In this document: piece after piece, positions 6,534 to 33,272 of the stretch
Layout: the number at the start of each line of letters is the position of its first letter
Numbering within the stretch: the first letter of the stretch is position 1
From: an uncultured Alphaproteobacteria bacterium
GTDB lineage: Bacteria > Pseudomonadota > Alphaproteobacteria > CAAHEQ01 > UBA3637
Reading direction: 5' to 3'
Length of the DNA: 33,272 bases
Assembly: GCA_947629595.1 (NCBI GenBank)
Contig: CANREI010000004.1
Location: 1 to 33,272 of the forward strand
Program-made: the position numbers and the translations under genes
The notes under the pieces: generated by a model
What the model was told of the DNA's origin: nothing
Database searches by the model: none
What the model saw: only the letters and a program-made list of their open reading frames with translations

Positions 6534-7143
6534 GTTTTTTCTCCTTGAAGAAGAGCTTTTTTTGCTTCTTTAAAATTAAAAAGAATCCGACGGGCATGGA
6601 AAACATAATTACATAAAGCGGATATACGTTTGCCATCAGTAAAATCAGCAAAATTAAAATAATGAGCCCGTCCCAAACGGAATGAATAATCTCTTTTCCC
6701 AAGCGCCACGCCGTTACGGCAAAAACGCCCGTTACTGCCGAGCGAATACCCGAAAAACCGCTTGTAATGTAAGGATTATTCGGACTTAAATCCGGAAAAA
6801 AATAAGCAATCGAACAAATAATCAGCAAGGAGGGAATCATCACACCGATTAAGGCCGCCACCGAGCCGATAAATCCCGCTATGCGCGAACCGACATATAA
6901 CGACGCATTCACGGCAATTAACCCCGGCACGGTTTGCGTTAATACCACCATATCCAATATTTCTTTTTTATTGAGCCATTTATGTTTGCGCAAAAAAACT
7001 TCTTCAATCACGGGTAACATGGCCAATCCGCCACCCACCACGAATAAGGCAATTTTAAAAAAGGTACAGAATAAAACCCGACACCGAACAATCAGCTCTT
7101 TTTTTGTTATTTTTTCAGGTGTTGTTTGAAACGATTTTCTCAT
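6526..7143 (-). CDS. Chromate transporter family protein (second short ChrA half)
   Basis: VVGGGLAMLPVIEEVFLRKHKWL...TVPGLIAVNASLYVGSRIAG; overlaps the other half. Confidence 0.82.
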   Translation of the reverse strand: MRKSFQTTPEKITKKELIVRCRVLFCTFFKIALFVVGGGLAMLPVIEEVFLRKHKWLNKKEILDMVVLTQTVPGLIAVNASLYVGSRIAGFIGSVAALIGVMIPSLLIICSIAYFFPDLSPNNPYITSGFSGIRSAVTGVFAVTAWRLGKEIIHSVWDGLIILILLILLMANVYPLYVIMFSMPVGFFLILKKQKKLFFKEKKHE

Positions 7144-9287
7144 TTTTGAGACAGAGCCGTTTTTTGCGCTGCTTTTTCATCTTTCGAAGCGTCTTTGACC
7201 TCTTTTGCCTTAACGGCGTTTTTATTCGCTTCGGCTTTCGAGGCTTCTCCGGCTTTTTCATCTTTTGAAGCTTCTTTTGCCTCTTCCGCCTTTACCGGCT
7301 CTTGAACCGCTTCGGCTTTTGGGGCTTCACCTGCTTTTTCATCTTTGGAAGCCTCCCCTTTTTTGCTTGTTCTTAACAATTCGTCCGTTTTGAATTCCAT
7401 TTCCAAAACAAGCTGGCCGTTTTCATCAAAAATTTGAGCAATACCGTCTTTTTTACCCTCTTTAAAATGCGCGATGCTTCTTAAAACACCGTTTTCAAAA
7501 TAGGTGCGACTTTCGCCGTTTAACAAATTATCACGATATTCATCTTCGCTTTGTAACTTGCCGTTTGCATGATAAATGCGTTGTTTTCCCTGCATTTGCC
7601 CGTTCACATACGCCGCATCGATGTGAATTTGTCCGTCGGGATAATATTGTTTAAATTCCCCGTCCGGCACATTATTCTTTAAAATGGTTCTGGAATTCAG
7701 CTGTCCGTTTTCATAATAGGTGGCAAACTCACCGTTTTGCTCGCCGTTTTGATAAAGCGCCGTTGTTTGCACTTGTCCGTTTTGATAATAAGCAATAAAA
7801 GGTCCGCTTTGAACACCGTTTTCAAATGTTTTTTCCGCCGCCAGCTGACCGTTTTCATAATATTCCTGTGATTTTCCCACCGCTTGTCCGGCACGCATAA
7901 CCACATGCGATTGCAAATTACCGTCAGAAAAATACGTGTTCATTTCACCGTCGGGCAAATCGTTTTTATAATGCAAATCCATTTTAATTTGCCCGTTTTG
8001 ATAATAAGCTTTTGCCGTACCGTCTTGCTTACCGGCTTTAAAATAAACCTCGTTTTCCAAACTTCCGTCGGGATAATAAGATTTACTCACACCGTCAATT
8101 AAATCGGCCTTATAAGTTTCTTCCTGCTGCAAGGCACCGAAATCATAATACGACTTGGAAACGCCTTCTTTAAAGCCGTCTTTATAATGCTCTTCCGATT
8201 GTAACTGTCCGTTTTCATAATAAGTTTTAACAATGCCTTCCGGCCCTTGCGGTTTAAACAACCCCTCGCCTTTGAGCTTGCCGTTCGGATAATATTCTTT
8301 CACTTCGCCGTTTAATTCGCCGTTTGTAAAATGACGCTCCAACAATAATTGCCCCGTTTCGCTAAATGCCTTATCCGTTCCGTCTTTCAAACCGTTTTTG
8401 TAATTCGTTTCAAAGTGCAATTGTCCCGACGGATAATAAATGCGCGAAACTCCTTCGGGTTTTCCCATTTTAAAAGTTGTTTCGTTTAACAATTTACCGG
8501 TATCATAGTAGGAAACGGCTTTATCAATCAAAAGCCCCTGATAATACATTTCAATCGTTTGAATTTGCCCGTTTTCATAATAGGTTCGACTTTCCCCGTG
8601 CGGTAATCCGTTAAAGAAATGCGTTCTTGCCAACAGTTTGCCCTCTTTTGTTTTTTCCTGCACAATACCCGTGAGCGGCATTTTACCGTTTTTCACATAA
8701 AAAATGCCGTTATTAAAGAAAATTTCATCTTTGGTAAAAGTGGGCAGTTTCATTTTTTTATCCGCAGAGGCTACGGGTTGCATCTCTCCCTCGGCTTGCG
8801 GACTGATATTCACAACCGGCTTAAAGCCCGTCGGCTCGTTTTGAGCAATATCCTGCACGGGGGCCGTCGGTTTCGAAGTCGGCACAACTGCCGTCGGTTC
8901 CGGCTTGACCAACGGTGCCGTTTGCAACACAGGCGCTAAACGAACGGCCGGCGCGGGGGACGACACAGCCGGAACAGTCTGCCCTGCTTTTGAAGGAACG
9001 GCGGGTGTTTTCATGACCGGTGCGGGAACAACGGTACCGTTTGCCGCGGGCATAACCATTTGAGTCGGTGCCTGAATTTGATGAACGGGAACGGCATTCC
9101 CCGCGGCGGGAACCTGTCCCATAACGGAAGCCGATAAAGATCCGGAAGAAAGCGGGCGCACGGCACGCGTCGGCTGAATGTTTGCCGCTTCCCGTAACGC
9201 CGCCGCATTGCTGACAACCTGTGCTTCAACGGATACCGTGCCGAAAAGCAACCCGCTCATTAACGCCATATTAAAAACTTTATTCAT
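7140..9287 (-). CDS. Secreted MORN-variant/YwqK-type repeat protein with Lys/Glu/Ala-rich C-terminus
   Basis: Signal peptide MNKVFNMALMSGLLFGTVSVEAQ; about 17 repeats of xYYxNGQLxxExxYKNGxxxG. Start set at 9287 (AGGAG upstream) rather than 9404. Confidence 0.85.
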   Translation of the reverse strand: MNKVFNMALMSGLLFGTVSVEAQVVSNAAALREAANIQPTRAVRPLSSGSLSASVMGQVPAAGNAVPVHQIQAPTQMVMPAANGTVVPAPVMKTPAVPSKAGQTVPAVSSPAPAVRLAPVLQTAPLVKPEPTAVVPTSKPTAPVQDIAQNEPTGFKPVVNISPQAEGEMQPVASADKKMKLPTFTKDEIFFNNGIFYVKNGKMPLTGIVQEKTKEGKLLARTHFFNGLPHGESRTYYENGQIQTIEMYYQGLLIDKAVSYYDTGKLLNETTFKMGKPEGVSRIYYPSGQLHFETNYKNGLKDGTDKAFSETGQLLLERHFTNGELNGEVKEYYPNGKLKGEGLFKPQGPEGIVKTYYENGQLQSEEHYKDGFKEGVSKSYYDFGALQQEETYKADLIDGVSKSYYPDGSLENEVYFKAGKQDGTAKAYYQNGQIKMDLHYKNDLPDGEMNTYFSDGNLQSHVVMRAGQAVGKSQEYYENGQLAAEKTFENGVQSGPFIAYYQNGQVQTTALYQNGEQNGEFATYYENGQLNSRTILKNNVPDGEFKQYYPDGQIHIDAAYVNGQMQGKQRIYHANGKLQSEDEYRDNLLNGESRTYFENGVLRSIAHFKEGKKDGIAQIFDENGQLVLEMEFKTDELLRTSKKGEASKDEKAGEAPKAEAVQEPVKAEEAKEASKDEKAGEASKAEANKNAVKAKEVKDASKDEKAAQKTALSQK

Positions 9288-9441
9288 AAAAACTCCTTTT
9301 ATAAAAGTGTTATTAAAATAGCAGATTACACAATTAAAATCAATCTTTTTTATGTTATTTTTAAATATTTTCTTATTTGATAAATCTTCCTTGACAGAAA
9401 ACAAGGCTTTTGATATTTTAAAAACAAGAAGGAATTTTTGA

Positions 9442-11486: not shown

Positions 11487-13475
11487 TTAGAACATCATTG
11501 TTGCGCGAATGGAAGCAACCGTTGCCGTATTCGATTTTTGATTCAAGCCGGGATTGATGTAAAACTGCACATCCGGCGTGATGGTCATAAACGAGCTGAT
11601 GCCCCACGCCCAATAAGCTTCCAACATATTTTCAACCGAGCGCGACCCTTCTCCGTTTACGCCTTTATCCAGCTTATTCACGGCACCCGCAAAGCCGATT
11701 TGATCCAAGGCGTTTCGATTGAGCGGATTATTATAAACGCCGCCCAACACATATGACTGACGAATACCGTTTACGCCTTTATTCACACCGTTGGCACGCA
11801 TAAACAAAGCTAATTTTTGCCCCATATTTTGTTGGGCATTCACGCTCCACCCTTGTGTTTTTTCCGGCTGTGCCTCAACGGACGGCTGATGATAGAGCAG
11901 CACGCTCAAAGTTGCCTGTCCCAATTTATTTTTCGGGTTAATCGTTCCGCTGACAAATGACGTAAACTTTTTGCCCCAATGATTTGTGGAAATATTGTTG
12001 CCGTCAATGTTTTGCGCATCTTGTCCGCCGGCAGATATACTCCAAAACGGATCAGGCGATACGGTTAAATAACCGCCTAAACTTGCCGACGGATAGGTAC
12101 TTGTTGCGTTTTGCGAAAACGATTCGTTGACAAAGTTAATTTGTTGGTTCGAATCGTAAGTCGTTCCGTCAAAATTATACATCGGAAACTGTCCGAGCGT
12201 TACGCTGAGCCAATTTAATTTGCCGGGCATTTGATGCGTATAACTTAATTCATAGAAATAGTTTGCTTTTGTCGTATAATCGTTTAAAGGCGTTACCACT
12301 CCGATATTACTGCCGAGTTCGGCACCGTTACCGTTCCAATAGCGCACCATTTCATACGCCAGGTTGGCCGAACCGCTGCCCCATGTATCCGACTGAAACA
12401 TATCCCATGTGGCGGCACCGTAATATTGCGTTTGCCACGGGGTAATATGCCCCGACGGCGCCCCGCGTTGCCCCATCAAAGAAACATCTAACGTATAAGA
12501 CAAACCCGTTTCTTTCAACAACTCGTTTTTTGCTTGCGCATAAGCGTTGGCCCAGCTGTTCACATCTTTATCGGCCCGACTTAAAAAAGAAGGGCTTGTT
12601 GCCTTTCTGCCGCGTGCCGTTTTCCCGTGTACAATCGGCACCGGATGCGTTGTTTCATCAGCGTTTAATACCGGAACATCGCCGGCGGATTTTCCGTTCG
12701 GGCACGTTTTTTCTGCCATGGCCTTCTTATTCATTCCATCACCGCCGTTTCTGCCTTGAATGTTATTTTGAAGCGACATCGGCTTACCGGCATCTTTCAC
12801 AACAGGTTTTACAGGTTGTTTTTGCGCAGGTATTTTAGCGGAAGGCTCCTTTACACCGTACGTTTTTTGCAGGGCCTCCTGATGCAGGCGTGATGCCTTT
12901 TCTTCATTTGTTTCCGTTATATTTTGCCACTTTTCTTTGGTCCCTTCTTTCACGTCTTGCCATGTTTCTTTGGTTCCCTCTTTCACATCTTCCCATTTTT
13001 CGGCGGTAGCGTCTTTCACATCACTCCACTTTTCGGCCGTTGCATCTTTTATGTCACTCCACTTTTCGGCGGTAGCGTCTTTCACGTCACTCCACTTTTC
13101 GGCGGTAGCGTCTTTCACGTCACTCCACTTTTCGGCGGTAGCATCTTTTGTTTTTTGCCACGTATCGGAAGCGCTTTCGGAAAGTGATTTTTGCTTTTGA
13201 ATATTTAATTGTTCCCTTTTCACGGCGCGATCCCGCACCAATTGTTTTTGCGTGCGGTTCAGTTTTTCGGCTTTGGGACTTTTTTGAACAGCTGCCTCAA
13301 TTTGTGCCTTATTTTGTTCCGTTTGAACGGGATGCATCGGCGCTGCCCGACTACCGGTTAACCGATACGGCGGTGTACCGTTTGCATCAGTCGGTTGCAT
13401 TTGTGCCGTTGCTTCCTGCGCCCAACATAAAAAACTTAAAATACCCGTTAAAAAATAAAAGTGTGCTTTTTGCAT
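11487..13475 (-). CDS. OprB-like outer-membrane porin with N-terminal 11-mer repeat region
   Basis: Signal peptide; KDATAEKWSDV repeats; beta-barrel-like C-terminus ending in VASIRATMMF; GAATWDMFQSDTWGSGSANLAYEMVRYW. Confidence 0.7.
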   Translation of the reverse strand: MQKAHFYFLTGILSFLCWAQEATAQMQPTDANGTPPYRLTGSRAAPMHPVQTEQNKAQIEAAVQKSPKAEKLNRTQKQLVRDRAVKREQLNIQKQKSLSESASDTWQKTKDATAEKWSDVKDATAEKWSDVKDATAEKWSDIKDATAEKWSDVKDATAEKWEDVKEGTKETWQDVKEGTKEKWQNITETNEEKASRLHQEALQKTYGVKEPSAKIPAQKQPVKPVVKDAGKPMSLQNNIQGRNGGDGMNKKAMAEKTCPNGKSAGDVPVLNADETTHPVPIVHGKTARGRKATSPSFLSRADKDVNSWANAYAQAKNELLKETGLSYTLDVSLMGQRGAPSGHITPWQTQYYGAATWDMFQSDTWGSGSANLAYEMVRYWNGNGAELGSNIGVVTPLNDYTTKANYFYELSYTHQMPGKLNWLSVTLGQFPMYNFDGTTYDSNQQINFVNESFSQNATSTYPSASLGGYLTVSPDPFWSISAGGQDAQNIDGNNISTNHWGKKFTSFVSGTINPKNKLGQATLSVLLYHQPSVEAQPEKTQGWSVNAQQNMGQKLALFMRANGVNKGVNGIRQSYVLGGVYNNPLNRNALDQIGFAGAVNKLDKGVNGEGSRSVENMLEAYWAWGISSFMTITPDVQFYINPGLNQKSNTATVASIRATMMF
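12940..13150 (-). repeat. 33-bp tandem repeats encoding 11-aa KDATAEKWSDV units
   Basis: Near-identical gtcactccacttttcggcggtagcgtctttcac units in tandem, diverging leftward. Confidence 0.9.
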
Positions 13476-22872: not shown

Positions 22873-22942
22873 TTTTCCCTCTATCGGCGGGTGGGACAGA
22901 CGGCTTTATGTCGTCTGTCGCTATGGGCCGATAGGGGGAAAA
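22873..22942 (-). repeat. Nested-hairpin element, copy 0, downstream of the left pilin-like gene
   Basis: Outer arms TTTTCCCTCTATCGGC (22873-22888) / GCCGATAGGGGGAAAA (22927-22942); inner stem GACAGACG (22895-22902) / CGTCTGTC (22912-22919). Confidence 0.88.
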
Positions 22943-23059: not shown

Positions 23060-24637
23060 TCACTCACATAAGGCATAGTCGAAGCTGCCGTTGCCGCGAC
23101 TGATGTAGTCGAGGTAACCGTTATAGAGGTAGACGCGGTACGCGAAGCAGGAAGAATCATTACTTCCATATGGATCGCTCAACCATAAATACTGGCTCGG
23201 ACGACTGTCTTCCTTCCCGTTATACGCCTTGCTTAATTCCTTCACTCCACTACTTACATCATCACTCGTGCTAGACTTATTACACGCCATCTCTGACCCC
23301 TCTGCATGGCAATATCCATATATACACTCTCCTCCGCTATATTGAATTTTATGCCTACATTGTAATTCAGAAATTGTCACCATGTGTTTATTACCCGGCA
23401 ACGCCTCGCAGAACCGCTTCGCACTCCACCAGGTCATAACCTTTGTTGATATAATGTATTTACTGCTTATATCTCCTGATTTGTTAATATCACTTTCTGC
23501 CTTCCTGCACTCACTCTTATAAGTGTCACTCCCCTCACCAAAGCCTTTGCTCTTATCAAATTCACTTGTGCAACTATATCCCCGATACAAATAGCAATAC
23601 TCTCCCTCTTTGCAATCAGCATTACTCTCGCATTCGCCGATTTTGCAGCGTTGTTTTTCTTCATCCCAATCGGCACATTGGTTGCATGTACCATAATTAG
23701 CGTAATAACCTGTATCGCACCAATAATGCTTCCCGTCTCCTTTTTTATCACAATCACTGTTCGTTCTGCATTCAACACATTGATTACTATACAAAACCGG
23801 CTTATCTTCCGGACATGTGGCAACACATTCACTGCCGTTCCAGTTTGGTGTATCCGGATAAACATTTTTGCAAGTATCACACTTACCCTCGGCGTTACAA
23901 ATCGGATAACTTGAACTGGTGCAATGGCTGTTATCACCGCATGCCGCACACTCTTCTATTTCTTTATTCCAATGCTGACTTGATGAGCATTTGCATTGCC
24001 TTGTCGCTTCATCCCACGGCGCGTCTTCCGGGCAGTTTTTACACGCACCGTCTGCGCTGCAATACCCTTCACACGTTGCCTCATCGCATTCTTTTCCGCC
24101 GCCCGAAACGCCCAAATCTTTGGTCGAAAAGGCTACCATTACTTCATTTTCTTCATTGTCACAAGGGATTTCCGCCGTCTCATAATCTTTACCGTTAATT
24201 TCTAATACGGCCGTATCATCCATGCCGTCTAATAAGGTTGCCAAAGGTTTACACACCCCGGCCGGTATGCCTGATAATGCAAATGAATAGCCCGTTTCTG
24301 TTTCGCCCGGCGTTTCTGTTTCTATATCTTCAAATTCAACCGCAACGCCATAATTTGCATTAAATTTTAAGTGTTTTTCATCATCGTACGGCGAGCCGAG
24401 CAATAATTCTTCCGCCCCTTGCGCAACTTTTATTTTTGCATCGGTGCGCATGAGGTTAATTTCATTCGCGATTTGATTCGCCTGATACCGATTCATGGCC
24501 ATTCTATATCCTGAAATGCCGCCGATTGAAATAACGCCGATAACGGCCAGAACGCCCAGCATTTCAACCATACTACGGCCTTGTTGCGCTTGATTTTCAA
24601 TTTGTTTTAATTGTTTTTTCCTTGTTTTATTGCTCAT
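23060..24637 (-). CDS. Pilin-like N-terminus, Cys-rich modules and C-type-lectin-like C-terminus
   Basis: QQGRSMVEMLGVLAVIGVISIGGISGYRMAMNRYQANQIANEINLMR (prepilin-like helix with Glu5); Cys-rich middle; MTWWSAKRFCEAL...YLWLSDPY...CFAYRVYLYNGYLDY...ALCE. Confidence 0.8.
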   Translation of the reverse strand: MSNKTRKKQLKQIENQAQQGRSMVEMLGVLAVIGVISIGGISGYRMAMNRYQANQIANEINLMRTDAKIKVAQGAEELLLGSPYDDEKHLKFNANYGVAVEFEDIETETPGETETGYSFALSGIPAGVCKPLATLLDGMDDTAVLEINGKDYETAEIPCDNEENEVMVAFSTKDLGVSGGGKECDEATCEGYCSADGACKNCPEDAPWDEATRQCKCSSSQHWNKEIEECAACGDNSHCTSSSYPICNAEGKCDTCKNVYPDTPNWNGSECVATCPEDKPVLYSNQCVECRTNSDCDKKGDGKHYWCDTGYYANYGTCNQCADWDEEKQRCKIGECESNADCKEGEYCYLYRGYSCTSEFDKSKGFGEGSDTYKSECRKAESDINKSGDISSKYIISTKVMTWWSAKRFCEALPGNKHMVTISELQCRHKIQYSGGECIYGYCHAEGSEMACNKSSTSDDVSSGVKELSKAYNGKEDSRPSQYLWLSDPYGSNDSSCFAYRVYLYNGYLDYISRGNGSFDYALCE

Positions 24638-24650
24638 TTTTCGCTTCCTT

Positions 24651-24840
24651 TCAATGCAAATAGCATAAAATAAACGTACCTTTAATGCAACGCTGATTCC
24701 GGGGTAAAATTACCCTTAAATTTTGGTAAAATGGCCTTTTTATAAACCATTGATATTGCATTAAAAATACCTCAAAATAAATTTTTTTTGAAAAAATCAA
24801 AAAAAAGTGTTGCAAAAATCGTACGTTTTTTTGATGCATA
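24651..24840 (-). promoter_or_regulatory. Leader of the left pilin-like gene (inverted copy of 25890-26088)
   Basis: Minus strand cgtacg-attttTGCAACACTTTTTTTTGATTTTTTCAAAAAAA...TTTAATGCAATATCAA...GGGTAATTTTACCC...GCGTTGCATTAAA...TTTATTTTATGCTATT closely matches the right leader. Confidence 0.75.
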
Positions 24841-25029: not shown

Positions 25030-25110
25030 GGGGCACACATCACTTGCCTTGCTTCCAGAATAAAAGCTTTTCATACCAATGTCAAGCAGAAAAAGCAGCA
25101 TCATTTATTT

Positions 25111-25177
25111 TTTCCTCTATCGGCCCATAGCGGAGCGGCACAGTTGCGCCGCTCCACATCCGCCGATAGAGGGGAAA
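25111..25177 (+). repeat. Nested-hairpin element A (type I)
   Basis: Outer TTTCCTCTATCGGC/GCCGATAGAGGGGAAA; inner GGAGCGGC (25132-25139) acagttgc GCCGCTCC (25148-25155). Confidence 0.9.
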
Positions 25178-25217
25178 TTCGGCGACAACGTTAAAATTTG
25201 ATACATTTTCCCTGCTA

Positions 25218-25288
25218 TTTTCTCAATTTTCGGTCCACCGCGCTATTCCACAATAGCGGGATAGCACTTCCCGCCGAAAATAAGAGAG
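25218..25288 (+). repeat. Nested-hairpin element B (type II)
   Basis: Outer TCTCAATTTTCGG/CCGAAAATAAGAGA; inner CGCTATT (25241-25247) ccac AATAGCG (25252-25258). Confidence 0.85.
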
Positions 25289-25418
25289 GAAACAAATACA
25301 GTTACCCTCAAAAAATAAATATAATATCAGCCGAAAAGAAAAGAGAGTGCCAACTGCAAATAGAGAAGAAAAATATCGTTTGTCTTTACCACTTCTGCCA
25401 AAATGACAGCCTGACGCC

Positions 25419-25487
25419 TTTCCTCCTATCGGCACATAGCGACAGACGACATAAAGCCGTCTGTCACACCCGCCGATAGAGGGGAAA
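25419..25487 (+). repeat. Nested-hairpin element C (type I)
   Basis: Outer TTTCCTCCTATCGGC/GCCGATAGAGGGGAAA; inner GACAGACG (25441-25448) / CGTCTGTC (25458-25465). Confidence 0.9.
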
Positions 25488-25560
25488 AAGAGAGTGCCAT
25501 ATACAGATAACAGAGTGATACATTAAAAAAATAACGCCGCTTTCGGTTCTCTACCTTTTC

Positions 25561-25627
25561 TTTCTCATTCTCGGCACATAGCGGAACGTCACAATTGCGA
25601 CGTTCCACATCCGCCGAGAATGAGAGA
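25561..25627 (+). repeat. Nested-hairpin element D (type I)
   Basis: Outer TCTCATTCTCGGC/GCCGAGAATGAGA; inner GGAACGTC (25583-25590) acaattgc GACGTTCC (25599-25606). Confidence 0.9.
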
Positions 25628-25653
25628 CAGAGACACAATTTTCTTTTCCTGCC

Positions 25654-25722
25654 TTTCTTATTTTCGGCACACCGCGCCGGCGCATATTTCAAGCGCCGCT
25701 ACTTCCCGCCGAAAATAAGAAA
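25654..25722 (+). repeat. Nested-hairpin element E (type II)
   Basis: Perfect 15-bp outer stem TTTCTTATTTTCGGC/GCCGAAAATAAGAAA; inner CGGCGC/GCGCCG (25678/25693). Confidence 0.9.
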
Positions 25723-25774
25723 CCGTGCCCAAATGATACCTTTTCTAGCTGTTTTTAGCTGCAAAGTCTCATCA

Positions 25775-25842
25775 TTTCCCCCTGTCGGCCCATAGCGATG
25801 CGCCACTTTCTGCGGCGCAACCCACACGCCGATAGAAGGAAA
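25775..25842 (+). repeat. Nested-hairpin element F (type I, less perfect outer stem)
   Basis: Outer TTTCCCCCTGTCGGC/GCCGATAGAAGGAAA; inner TGCGCC/GGCGCA (25799/25814). Confidence 0.85.
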
Positions 25843-25889
25843 ATCCAGTGACAACGCTAAAAACCGACATATTTTCCCAATTACCTGTC

Positions 25890-26088
25890 CTCAAAAAAAC
25901 GTACGTTTTTTGCAACACTTTTTTTTGATTTTTTCAAAAAAATTTTATTTGGAGGTAAATTTAATGCAATATCAAAGGGTTATAAAAAGCCTGTTTTATC
26001 AATTTTTGAGGGTAATTTTACCCCCGAATCTGCGTTGCATTAAACGTACGTTTATTTTATGCTATTCGTATACTGAAAGGGAGTCGGA
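25890..26088 (+). promoter_or_regulatory. Leader of the right pilin-like gene (inverted copy of 24651-24840)
   Basis: CGTACG (25900-25905), TTTAATGCAA (25960-25969), GGGTAATTTTACCC (26010-26023), TTGCATTAAA (26035-26044), CGTACG (26045-26050). Confidence 0.75.
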
Positions 26089-26090
26089 AA

Positions 26091-27611
26091 ATGACAAGAA
26101 AATTAAAAAAACAAATTGAAACACGCTCTCAAAGCGGCCGGAGCATGATTGAAATGCTGGGGGTGCTGGCGATTATTGCCGTTCTGTCCATCGGTGGGAT
26201 TGTGGGCTATAAATTAGCTATGAACTACTATCAGGCCGATCAGATTGCGAATGAAATTAACTTAATGCGTAACGATTTAAAGGTTAAATATGCTCTGGGG
26301 AATGAAGAATTGTTATTGGGGGACCCTTATGATGATACACCCGCAGATGAAAATTACAGCGGGCATTTATCAACACAATATGATCGTTATCCCGTTGATT
26401 ATGATTGCATCCGCAAAGACAAAGCAGAATTTTATAATTGTCGCGAAACAGATGCTTATTATATTAAAGTGGGAAATGTTTCGAAAGGCGTCTGTAAGCC
26501 CCTCGCAACGCTTCTTAATGGCATGGACGGTTTAATGTATATGGAAATCAATAAAGAAGTTTATAAAGAAAATGATTTATGCACGAGTGATGAAAATAAT
26601 GAAATTTATATTGAATTTGATGCGGAAGAAGTGAATGGAAACTATGATTCGAATCGTCCCGAAGGTTGGTGCACTGATGATGACGATTGTGACGCTTCAA
26701 GACCTATTTGTGATATAGAAAATAATGAATGCGTGGAATGTATAGATTATACGGATTGCACGGATTCCACCAAACCCCGTTGTAATGTTGAACAAGGTAA
26801 TTGCGAATCGTGTCCGCCGGAAACGCCTAAATGGAACGGCGAAGAGTGTGTGGAATGTTTATCGTCTGCCGATTGCACGAATCTCGATAAACCAAATTGT
26901 AACGCAGGGACAAACACATGTGAAGCATGCCCGCCGGAAAAACCATTATGGAACGGCTCAAATTGTGAAGCTTGCCCTGAAGATGAACCGTGGAACGGCG
27001 AATCTTGCGGATGCAGAAGTAATGATGATTGCGAAACGGATGAATATTGCTCTATGTTGTGGCGTACAGGTGATATATGTCAAATTGCCGAAACAGGAAA
27101 GTGTAAAAAATTAGGCCATTATCAGAAAGAACAGTTTGATAATGAAACCTACTATGTATCAGATGAAACAATGACATGGTGGAGTGCTCAAAATTACTGT
27201 CAAGCCCTTACGCGCACAACAGATTGCGGCGGTAACATGGTGAGTTGGAGCAAACTCAATTTGCAATGCGCCAATGAAATTGTGGTTCAAGATGGTTGTA
27301 AATGCAGTGATGAAAATTGTAATTTGGATCACCAAGTCAAACAATGTCAACGATTAAGTCTCGCCGAAGGTATCCATTTGTATTGCAAAAAAGATACTGC
27401 CGGAACAAGCGGTTCATCAAATATTCCGGATAAACTGAAAACATTACGAGAAACGTTTTTTAACAATGACTCCGAAAGTTTTGTTTGGCTTAATGACGGA
27501 AATAATCCTTGCTATGCGTGGGTTATCGGACCAAACGGAATTGTTACCGCTCGTCCGCGATATTACGGTAGAGATATCTTGGTGAGCGACGGCCATGCCT
27601 TTTGTTATTAA
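26091..27611 (+). CDS. Pilin-like N-terminus, Cys-rich modules and C-type-lectin-like C-terminus (paralogue of 23060-24637)
   Basis: QSGRSMIEMLGVLAIIAVLSIGGIVGYKLAMNYYQADQIANEINLMRNDLKVKYALGNEELLLGDPYDD; CPPETPKWNGEEC/CPPEKPLWNGSNC modules; MTWWSAQNYCQAL...FVWLNDGNNPCYAWVI...AFCY. Confidence 0.8.
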   Translation: MTRKLKKQIETRSQSGRSMIEMLGVLAIIAVLSIGGIVGYKLAMNYYQADQIANEINLMRNDLKVKYALGNEELLLGDPYDDTPADENYSGHLSTQYDRYPVDYDCIRKDKAEFYNCRETDAYYIKVGNVSKGVCKPLATLLNGMDGLMYMEINKEVYKENDLCTSDENNEIYIEFDAEEVNGNYDSNRPEGWCTDDDDCDASRPICDIENNECVECIDYTDCTDSTKPRCNVEQGNCESCPPETPKWNGEECVECLSSADCTNLDKPNCNAGTNTCEACPPEKPLWNGSNCEACPEDEPWNGESCGCRSNDDCETDEYCSMLWRTGDICQIAETGKCKKLGHYQKEQFDNETYYVSDETMTWWSAQNYCQALTRTTDCGGNMVSWSKLNLQCANEIVVQDGCKCSDENCNLDHQVKQCQRLSLAEGIHLYCKKDTAGTSGSSNIPDKLKTLRETFFNNDSESFVWLNDGNNPCYAWVIGPNGIVTARPRYYGRDILVSDGHAFCY

Positions 27612-32093: not shown

Positions 32094-33272
32094 ATGGATG
32101 AGCGCACACCGCTTGATCAGGATAATCAGCTTTTATATGCGTTTTTAAATCGCAAAAAAACGCGCGATAATCAAGCTGCCGTGACGGCTCAACGGTTAGT
32201 CAATCTGTTTCGCCAACTTTCTTCTTTCAGCCCCGAATTTGTCGCACAATATAATCAAATGCTTTTAGGCGCCAATGATGAAATTCAAATGATGTTACAA
32301 GATATTGTCGGCGGGCCGACCGTTCGGCAATATTTAACCTATCTAAAACAGGCATACGGGCAAGCGGTTAACGAGCAGGAGGGCAGTGAAAAAACGTCTG
32401 TTTCATCCGTGAATACGGGCTATTTACCCTCTGCCGATGATGATACACCGTTTTATAAAACGGCATTGGGTTTTGGCGAAGCGGCTCCCAAACCATCCAG
32501 CGAACCGATTGTTACCATTCAAGATTTTACCAAATGGCAAAAATCACAAGAGGCCTTGATCAGAAAAGCCATGATGGCTCAAAATAAGGCTATTTCAAAA
32601 CTGGCACTGGCTTTATCCGAAAAGAAAAACACTGTCGACAATCAACCGACACCGCCAATTCAATCGGCCTATCCGCAGTCGCCGTTTCATATGCCGCAAC
32701 CCTCAACTCCTTATGTGAATCAAGCCGTCGGAACTCATTTACAATCCGATTTAACGCAATTTGAAGAACCAAATCCGGTTATGCAAAACAGCTTCTCTTC
32801 TTCGGATAACGGCAATCAGCCTGTTTTATCGGAAAACACGGCTGCATCGGAAATATCCGAAACCACAGCACCGCTTGAAGAACCGACAGCATTTGAATCG
32901 TTTGAAGAGACCGCCGCGACAACAGATAACACGTTTAATCTTCCCGAAGAAAGCGTTGAAGCACCTGTTTCGTTTGAAGAAACCGCAACAACAGATAACA
33001 CGTTTAATCTTCCCGAAGAAACCGTTGAAGCACCTGTTTCGTTTGAAGAAACCGCAACAACAACAGATAACACGTTTGCCCTTCCCGAAGAAGCCGTTGA
33101 AGCACCTGTTTCGTTTGAAGAAACCGCCGCGACAACAGATAACACGTTTGCTCTTCCCGAAGAAGCCGTTGAAGCACCTGTTTCGTTTGAAGAAACCGCC
33201 GCAACAACAGATAACACGTTTGCCCTTCCCGAAGAAACCGTTGAAGCACCTGTTTCGTTTGAAGAACCCGCC
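32094..33272 (+). CDS. Uncharacterised repeat-rich protein, 3' truncated by window edge
   Basis: GGAACAGAAA-ATG at 32094, frame open for 393 codons to the edge (absent from the ORF track, which lists closed ORFs); MDERTPLDQDNQLLYAFLNRKKTRDNQAAVTAQRLVNLFRQLSSFSPEF... Confidence 0.75.
   Translation, partial: MDERTPLDQDNQLLYAFLNRKKTRDNQAAVTAQRLVNLFRQLSSFSPEFVAQYNQMLLGANDEIQMMLQDIVGGPTVRQYLTYLKQAYGQAVNEQEGSEKTSVSSVNTGYLPSADDDTPFYKTALGFGEAAPKPSSEPIVTIQDFTKWQKSQEALIRKAMMAQNKAISKLALALSEKKNTVDNQPTPPIQSAYPQSPFHMPQPSTPYVNQAVGTHLQSDLTQFEEPNPVMQNSFSSSDNGNQPVLSENTAASEISETTAPLEEPTAFESFEETAATTDNTFNLPEESVEAPVSFEETATTDNTFNLPEETVEAPVSFEETATTTDNTFALPEEAVEAPVSFEETAATTDNTFALPEEAVEAPVSFEETAATTDNTFALPEETVEAPVSFEEPA
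32904..33272 (+). repeat. ~72-bp tandem coding repeats (EETAATTDNTFALPEEAVEAPVSF)
   Basis: At least five copies of gaagaaaccgc(cgc)gacaacagataacacgttt..cttcccgaagaa..cgttgaagcacctgtttcgttt with in-frame 3-nt length variation. Confidence 0.92.

Follow-up and report, generated by a model that had tools for sequence, protein, structure and literature searches.

The hairpins described here are probably palindromic elements within intergenic mosaic arrays on either side of pilin-lectin cassettes, and probably serve there as junctions for DNA recombination. They lie in a stretch of 33,272 nucleotides (the window) from the 1.34-Mb genome of an uncultured alphaproteobacterium (G000), and we infer recombination from the sequence of their junctions. 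All genomes used are, according to their records, short-read metagenome bins, in which repeats break contigs and could also create false joins.

Inward-facing hairpin arrays flank pilin-lectin genes

An earlier note on this DNA had claimed six units of the same orientation in one intergenic stretch, and six hairpins, all on one strand, are indeed present at 25109-25843; a seventh stands beyond the neighboring gene. Each unit is a two-storey hairpin of 65-71 nt: the outer stem, of up to 14 bp, is followed by a small internal loop and a short helix containing a bulged base, and the inner stem of 8 bp carries a loop of about 5-9 nt. The units fall into two superclasses, type I (A, C, D, F and the hairpin at 22873) and type II (B and E). 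The features of the window are as follows.

22873-22942, plus strand: seventh hairpin, type I (88.7 bits), separated from the array by the left pilin-lectin gene and of opposite orientation
23060-23152, minus strand: 3'-terminal variable region of the left pilin-lectin gene, with a DGR-type codon pattern
23060-24637, minus strand: left pilin-lectin gene (525 aa) between the inward hairpins at 22873 and 25109, with a pilin N-terminus, a Cys-rich middle and a lectin-like C-terminus
24800-24834: 35-bp inverted repeat (97%) containing CGTACG, left arm, located in the left pilin gene's promoter region; counterpart at 25891-25925
25109-25177, minus strand: hairpin unit A, type I (82.7 bits), outer stem CCCTCTATCGGC, inner stem GGAGCGGC
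25178-25773, strand not applicable: spacers between the window hairpins, of which those of 45, 76 and 28 nt belong to families recurring in other G000 and G005 arrays and that of 133 nt is a singleton
25219-25288, minus strand: hairpin unit B, type II (36.1 bits with the type I model), outer stem TTATTTTCGGC, inner stem GCTATCCC
25418-25487, minus strand: hairpin unit C, type I (82.7 bits), inner stem GACAGACG
25560-25628, minus strand: hairpin unit D, type I (81.5 bits), outer stem CTCATTCTCGGC, inner stem GGAACGTC
25653-25723, minus strand: hairpin unit E, type II (45.8 bits), inner stem CGGCGC
25774-25843, minus strand: hairpin unit F, type I (79.3 bits), inner stem TGCGCC
25891-25925: 35-bp CGTACG inverted repeat, right arm, located in the right pilin gene's promoter region
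26091-27611, plus strand: divergent pilin-lectin gene (506 aa), the second of the window, across the array from the first

Neither window pilin had a match in Pfam. The structure predicted for the 525-aa protein reached a pLDDT of 64.5 (moderate), and its top PDB matches were type IV pilins (E = 0.026); the assignment as a lectin is therefore based on the sequence pattern and the link to diversity-generating retroelements (DGRs) and not on a fold match. The pilin-lectins are putative surface adhesins. A motif of the form CGTACG...TGCAACACTTTTTTT recurs upstream of many pilin genes.

The layout of the window follows an order that recurs elsewhere: a unique gene, an inward array, 230-490 bp, a pilin-lectin gene, 15-125 bp, a second inward array and a unique gene. 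Here, it is represented by the hairpin at 22873 (+), the pilin gene at 23060-24637, the array at 25109-25843 (-) and the pilin gene at 26091-27611. The spacings mark the two clusters of hairpin-gene distances, the longer being that of the 5' side and the shorter that of the 3' side. The innermost hairpin points to the gene in 41 of 49 cases on the 3' side and in 46 of 68 on the 5' side; the remaining 22 of 68 innermost 5' hairpins face away from the gene, which counts against the reading given above. Intrinsic terminators were rejected as an identity for the hairpins, because the outer stem terminates in A on either strand and a T run is lacking.

The earlier note had raised the question of whether copies concentrate beside pilin or lectin genes, and this proved to be the case. 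The copies are not scattered: all 24 hairpins in 400 kb of a second genome of the genus, G005, lie within 1,050 bp of a pilin-lectin gene, recognised by its type IV pilin start, Cys-rich middle and lectin-like end, although they form about nine clusters and are therefore not 24 independent events; of randomly placed intergenic points, 33% have such a gene within 1.5 kb. One false detector call inside a coding gene of L180 was omitted from this test. Pilin-family genes number 85 in G000, 90 in G005, 32 in G007 and 16 in G009, the four genomes with hairpins. Congeners lacking hairpins also have large families (99 in G001, 61 in G008 and 31 in G004), so the arrays are not needed for the expansion of the pilin family.

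Elsewhere, the window encodes other repetitive proteins. These are a YYENGQ-type repeat protein (MORN-like) and a tandem TAEKWSDVKDA repeat protein at 7140-9404 and 11487-13475, and, at the end of the window (32816-33217), an open reading frame of near-perfect repeats of about 25 aa (NVLSVVAAVSSNETGASTASSGRA).

The hairpin family is abundant but restricted to one genus

The core pattern CGGCNCATAGC occurred 74 times in the window's genome compared to 4 times for a reversed control pattern. A covariance model gave 138 matches there, in part the same palindrome on the opposite strand, and type II copies were added by local search. Altogether, the family has about 100 copies in G000 and likewise in one close relative. 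In the covariance-model search of this and related genomes that the earlier note had proposed, the family is present in 4 of 39 genomes, all of a single genus (G000, G005 with 121 matches, G007 with 66 and G009 with 3), and the covariance search gave no match in 6 congeners and 29 more distant relatives. Hairpin and gene calls outside the covariance search were made by our own scripts, which miss degenerate copies (e.g. unit F) and split or truncate genes at the ends of loci.

Named records containing the core pattern are mainly Alphaproteobacteria bins from the rabbit gut (Lapin). Isolated matches in other named records look like chance, and a few short pattern-bearing contigs in other Lapin bins look misbinned. 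Repeat-bearing contigs also occur in unrelated rabbit-gut bins (L080, L086, L095, L109, L129, L130, Akkermansia bin; L074, L112, Gastranaerophilales bin); these are probably misbinned Alphaproteobacteria contigs. No Rfam 15 family matched at its gathering score, and gathering or relaxed thresholds returned only chance matches, such as sub-threshold microRNA families. Together with the failed REP/RAYT tests described below, this agrees with the earlier statement that the family was not recognised.

Stems covary and the minus strand is favored as the folded strand

Among 17 aligned copies, standard pairs filled 93% of the pair cells, compared to 80% in shuffles and 35-55% with a slid partner, and 14 of the 28 pairs showed changes on both sides. 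The covariation score was 0.436 versus 0.187 for shuffled alignments, none of 500 shuffles reaching the observed value, and 0.06-0.15 for slid partners. Pairing is thus kept across unrelated stem sequences, and both scores bear out the initial description of inner and outer stems that diverge in sequence and remain paired.

The complement of the strand on which the units had first been described folds better, with a mean of -43.3 versus -33.4 kcal/mol under RNA parameters (lower in 110 of 115 copies), and we therefore read the hairpins on this minus strand. DNA parameters favored the same strand (-21.9 versus -18.3, lower in 108 of 115 copies). Three stem positions are predominantly G.U or U.G pairs in type I and type II alike. 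After removal of the frayed outer edge and of positions at which G.U is the norm, the remaining stem positions gave 48 distinct G.U versus 23 A.C changes on the minus strand (p = 0.004), a bias that is nil when all stem positions, edges included, are taken (88 versus 97). The conserved G.U positions and the G.U excess suggest that the strand which folds is the minus strand, and the conservation of the unpaired junction, the G.U pairs and the bulge suggests that a protein reads the minus-strand fold.

An alternative is a structured RNA, for which the minus strand would be transcribed and the hairpins would act in processing, stability or regulation of the pilin genes. The conserved U.G pairs, the one-sided G.U excess and the much lower RNA folding energy of the minus strand speak for it, and yet we regard it as quite improbable. 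DNA parameters favor the minus strand too, no Rfam family matched, and, with inward-facing hairpins, the favored strand is sense upstream and antisense downstream of the gene, so that no single transcript accounts for both sides. The earlier note had argued for selection of structure either as RNA or as single-stranded DNA or a cruciform; since the arrays are mostly extragenic on both sides, and the 5' arrays stand 230-490 bp upstream of start codons, a role as DNA fits better.

The covariation itself is real. What did not hold was the use of covariation alone as proof of stepwise compensatory selection: the inner stem varies without regard to the flanks, and at orthologous sites one complete, paired stem takes the place of another (see below), so recombination and self-templated copying of palindromes can also yield covariation. 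The compensatory changes result at least partly, and probably for the most part, from block replacement of whole stems, and, as whole stems are exchanged as blocks, such changes alone do not prove selection on RNA. More generally, strong covariation among repeats within a genome can stem from block exchange, and a claim of RNA selection needs a test of the flanks.

Hairpins, spacers and genes form mosaic junctions within and between species

Within the arrays, neighboring hairpins have the same orientation in 101 of 112 cases (11 opposed) and are separated by spacers of 27-198 nt, which comprise 16 recurring families and singletons. For 102 hairpins of one outer-stem class (class P), 10 gene-side and 14 distal flank families occurred in 45 combinations, with 44 four-gamete quartets; the type II hairpins gave 57 quartets. 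Gene-side flank, inner stem and distal flank are thus reassorted almost without restriction. The inner stem of class P was independent of either flank (p = 0.57 and 0.83), while the association of left and right flanks was weak and non-zero, slightly above that of shuffled data (mutual information 1.15 versus 0.89, p = 0.001). Rare hairpins have arms from two different classes (L011:1454, in the alignment).

At identical chromosomal sites, sister species also have different hairpins, spacers and pilin genes, the breaks falling at hairpin edges. G000 and G005, whose MutL proteins are 97% identical, share loci in which the unique flanks are 95-97% identical up to the edge of the hairpin and the inner stem differs (L018/L061 and L141/L060). 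Both the inner stem and the outer flank differ at the end of related pilin genes in L154/L194. At L157/L083, the same hairpin has a pilin promoter as its neighbor in one species, and in the other it borders the 3' end of a pilin gene. At L250/L063, a hairpin beside the same unique sequence adjoins a spacer in G005; in G009 the adjoining DNA is promoter-like. For the part of each repertoire compared, the match between pilin-lectins of G000 and G005 is often no better than about 40-65% along most of the protein, with some blocks of higher similarity. The two flanks of most tested G005 cassettes are found on different contigs in G009, an argument from synteny that is weakened by contig breaks, and some of the mosaic junctions could be assembly errors because all data come from short-read metagenome bins. 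For the window array, a search for empty sites found synteny broken in G005, G007 and G009, and the loci examined offered no clean empty site.

A high-copy intergenic palindrome may also be a selfish repeat, REP- or MITE-like, that owes its spread to a transposase recognising the folded single strand and that merely tolerates or prefers the intergenic regions of pilin genes. The copy number, the imperfect palindrome with its conserved bulge and mismatches, and the strand asymmetry are in line with such a repeat, and TnpA-REP reads bulged palindromes (PMC8266576). We consider this unlikely: no Y1 transposase (PF01797) was found in G000, G005, G007 or G009, none of 218 units has a GTAG tag at the 5' edge, adjacent hairpins are arranged head to tail and not opposed, the spacers recur with many different hairpins and do not match split empty sites, and the copies are confined to one gene family.

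Bracketed genes have retroelement-type variable ends

In 25 lectin ends from G000 and G005, several codons are approximately random at positions 1 and 2, with a mostly near-invariant C at position 3. This is the pattern expected of a DGR with an AAY template (positions 1 and 2 random, position 3 fixed), and many target genes of one genome thus appear, judged by codon pattern, to have retroelement-type variable regions. An RVT_1 reverse transcriptase, a bAvd-like protein and a template repeat rich in AAC/AAT are encoded in G001 (L229), G008 (L230) and G004 (L231). No RVT_1 reverse transcriptase was detected in the hairpin genomes G000, G005, G007 and G009, an absence that is not proven because two of these bins are 77% complete (G005 is 95% complete), and the hairpin-genome loci examined gave no template-repeat-like match. 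Reverse transcriptase and hairpins never occurred together among the 10 genomes of the genus.

The position of the hairpins close to variable ends may suggest that they are accessory DGR targets, guiding retrohoming from downstream of the variable region (VR). There is a precedent in phage BPP-1, which needs hairpin or cruciform elements downstream of its VR (PMC3240598), and the type I hairpins often lie 15-125 bp past the stop codon of genes with DGR-type variable 3' ends. This is, however, very unlikely to be their function. The hairpins are lacking in the congeners that have reverse transcriptase, Avd and template repeat, variable-end genes occur with no detected hairpin nearby (L181:10810, L186:6808), hairpins also stand upstream of genes and beside pilin genes without an ALCE end, and known DGR hairpins differ in stem, loop and distance to the VR.

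Recombination between arrays may exchange pilin-lectin cassettes

If the hairpins are recombination junctions of mosaic arrays, recombination between arrays would be either homologous or catalyzed by a candidate structure-specific enzyme acting on the folded single strand. The exchange would replace, invert or copy the cassette between the arrays, and the cell would gain a fast-changing set of adhesins on top of the retroelement-type hypermutation of the lectin tips. In a stronger form, which we put forward only tentatively, the hairpins could be dedicated, structure-read recombination sites of a new system for cassette exchange, in which pilin-lectin genes diversified by a retroelement are swapped, inverted and copied. 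Diversification would then have two layers: hypermutation of lectin tips and shuffling of whole genes.

No recombinase tracks the hairpins, as serine and tyrosine recombinases (Resolvase, Phage_integrase) are present in all 10 congeners, with or without hairpins. A serine recombinase of the Mpi master DNA invertase type is encoded beside a G005 array (L060:4467-5066; score 271.4, cut-off 272), and a second serine recombinase gene lies near hairpins in G000 (L166, C1:28224-28649).

Two sister species differ in nearly the whole sampled pilin-lectin set, and their other genes are nearly the same; the renewal of a large surface repertoire by bacteria can therefore be studied here as a natural test case.

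Comparison with known systems

Integron attC sites are hairpins of a folded single strand with conserved unpaired features and a free stem sequence, and they form arrays with cassettes. The units described here resemble them in the folded hairpin, the conserved unpaired features and the freedom of stem sequence; they differ in that the gene sits between inverted arrays. The R box pair RYYYAAC...GTTRRRY occurred in 0 of 218 units, and membership in the attC sites was rejected on this ground. PF00589 proteins number 1-6 per congener, with Xer, phage and IntI types counted together.

The target hairpins of DGRs, as described for BPP-1, have a 7-10 bp stem and a 4-nt GRNA loop and lie 4-34 bp after the VR (PMC3240598). 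As here, the DNA hairpin is close to where a variable lectin-like gene ends, and its structure is conserved while the stem sequence is free (PMC3240598). Stem length, loop and distance are different in our units, which excludes them from this class; in addition, arrays are present on both sides of the gene and the congeners bearing reverse transcriptase have no hairpins.

With REPs and BIMEs, the units share the high copy number, the extragenic position, the bulged and mismatched palindrome and the mosaic clusters, and the CGTC-tagged REPs of Alphaproteobacteria are also without a known transposase (PMC3733652). REPs, however, are 20-40 bp long, are tagged with GTAG or CGTC and occur mostly as head-head or opposed dimers, whereas the units here are 65-71 nt long, untagged and head to tail. 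Among the 218 units, GTAG was found at the 3' edge of 5, and CGTC at the 5' edge of 7 and the 3' edge of 4. Lacking both the tag and, in G000, G005, G007 and G009, a RAYT (Y1 transposase), the units were rejected as members of the REP/RAYT family.

The closest parallel is provided by the neisserial NIMEs, in which dRS3 palindromes and RS modules form arrays next to surface genes, those of the pilus included; recombination, changes of cassette and rearrangement have been linked to them (PMC3898611, PMC9778887). In both systems, the intergenic regions adjoining surface or pilus genes hold short palindromes in alternation with spacer modules of a limited number of kinds; the recurring spacers measure 27-198 nt here and the RS modules 30-160 bp, and recombination is suggested by the junctions. 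The dRS3 element is a 20-bp palindrome, ATTCCC(N8)GGGAAT, whereas the unit here is a two-storey hairpin of 65-71 nt with several interchangeable stem sequences, and the arrays are tied to one gene family and face inward from both sides. The dRS3 pattern was absent from the window and from L060, L128, L107 and L196, and the units were accordingly rejected as NIMEs. By analogy, the arrays are nevertheless best read as working most like NIMEs while being unrelated to them in sequence. Gut Alphaproteobacteria would then possess an independent counterpart to the mosaic arrays of Neisseria, distinguished by a far more elaborate hairpin and a tight tie to one hypervariable gene family.
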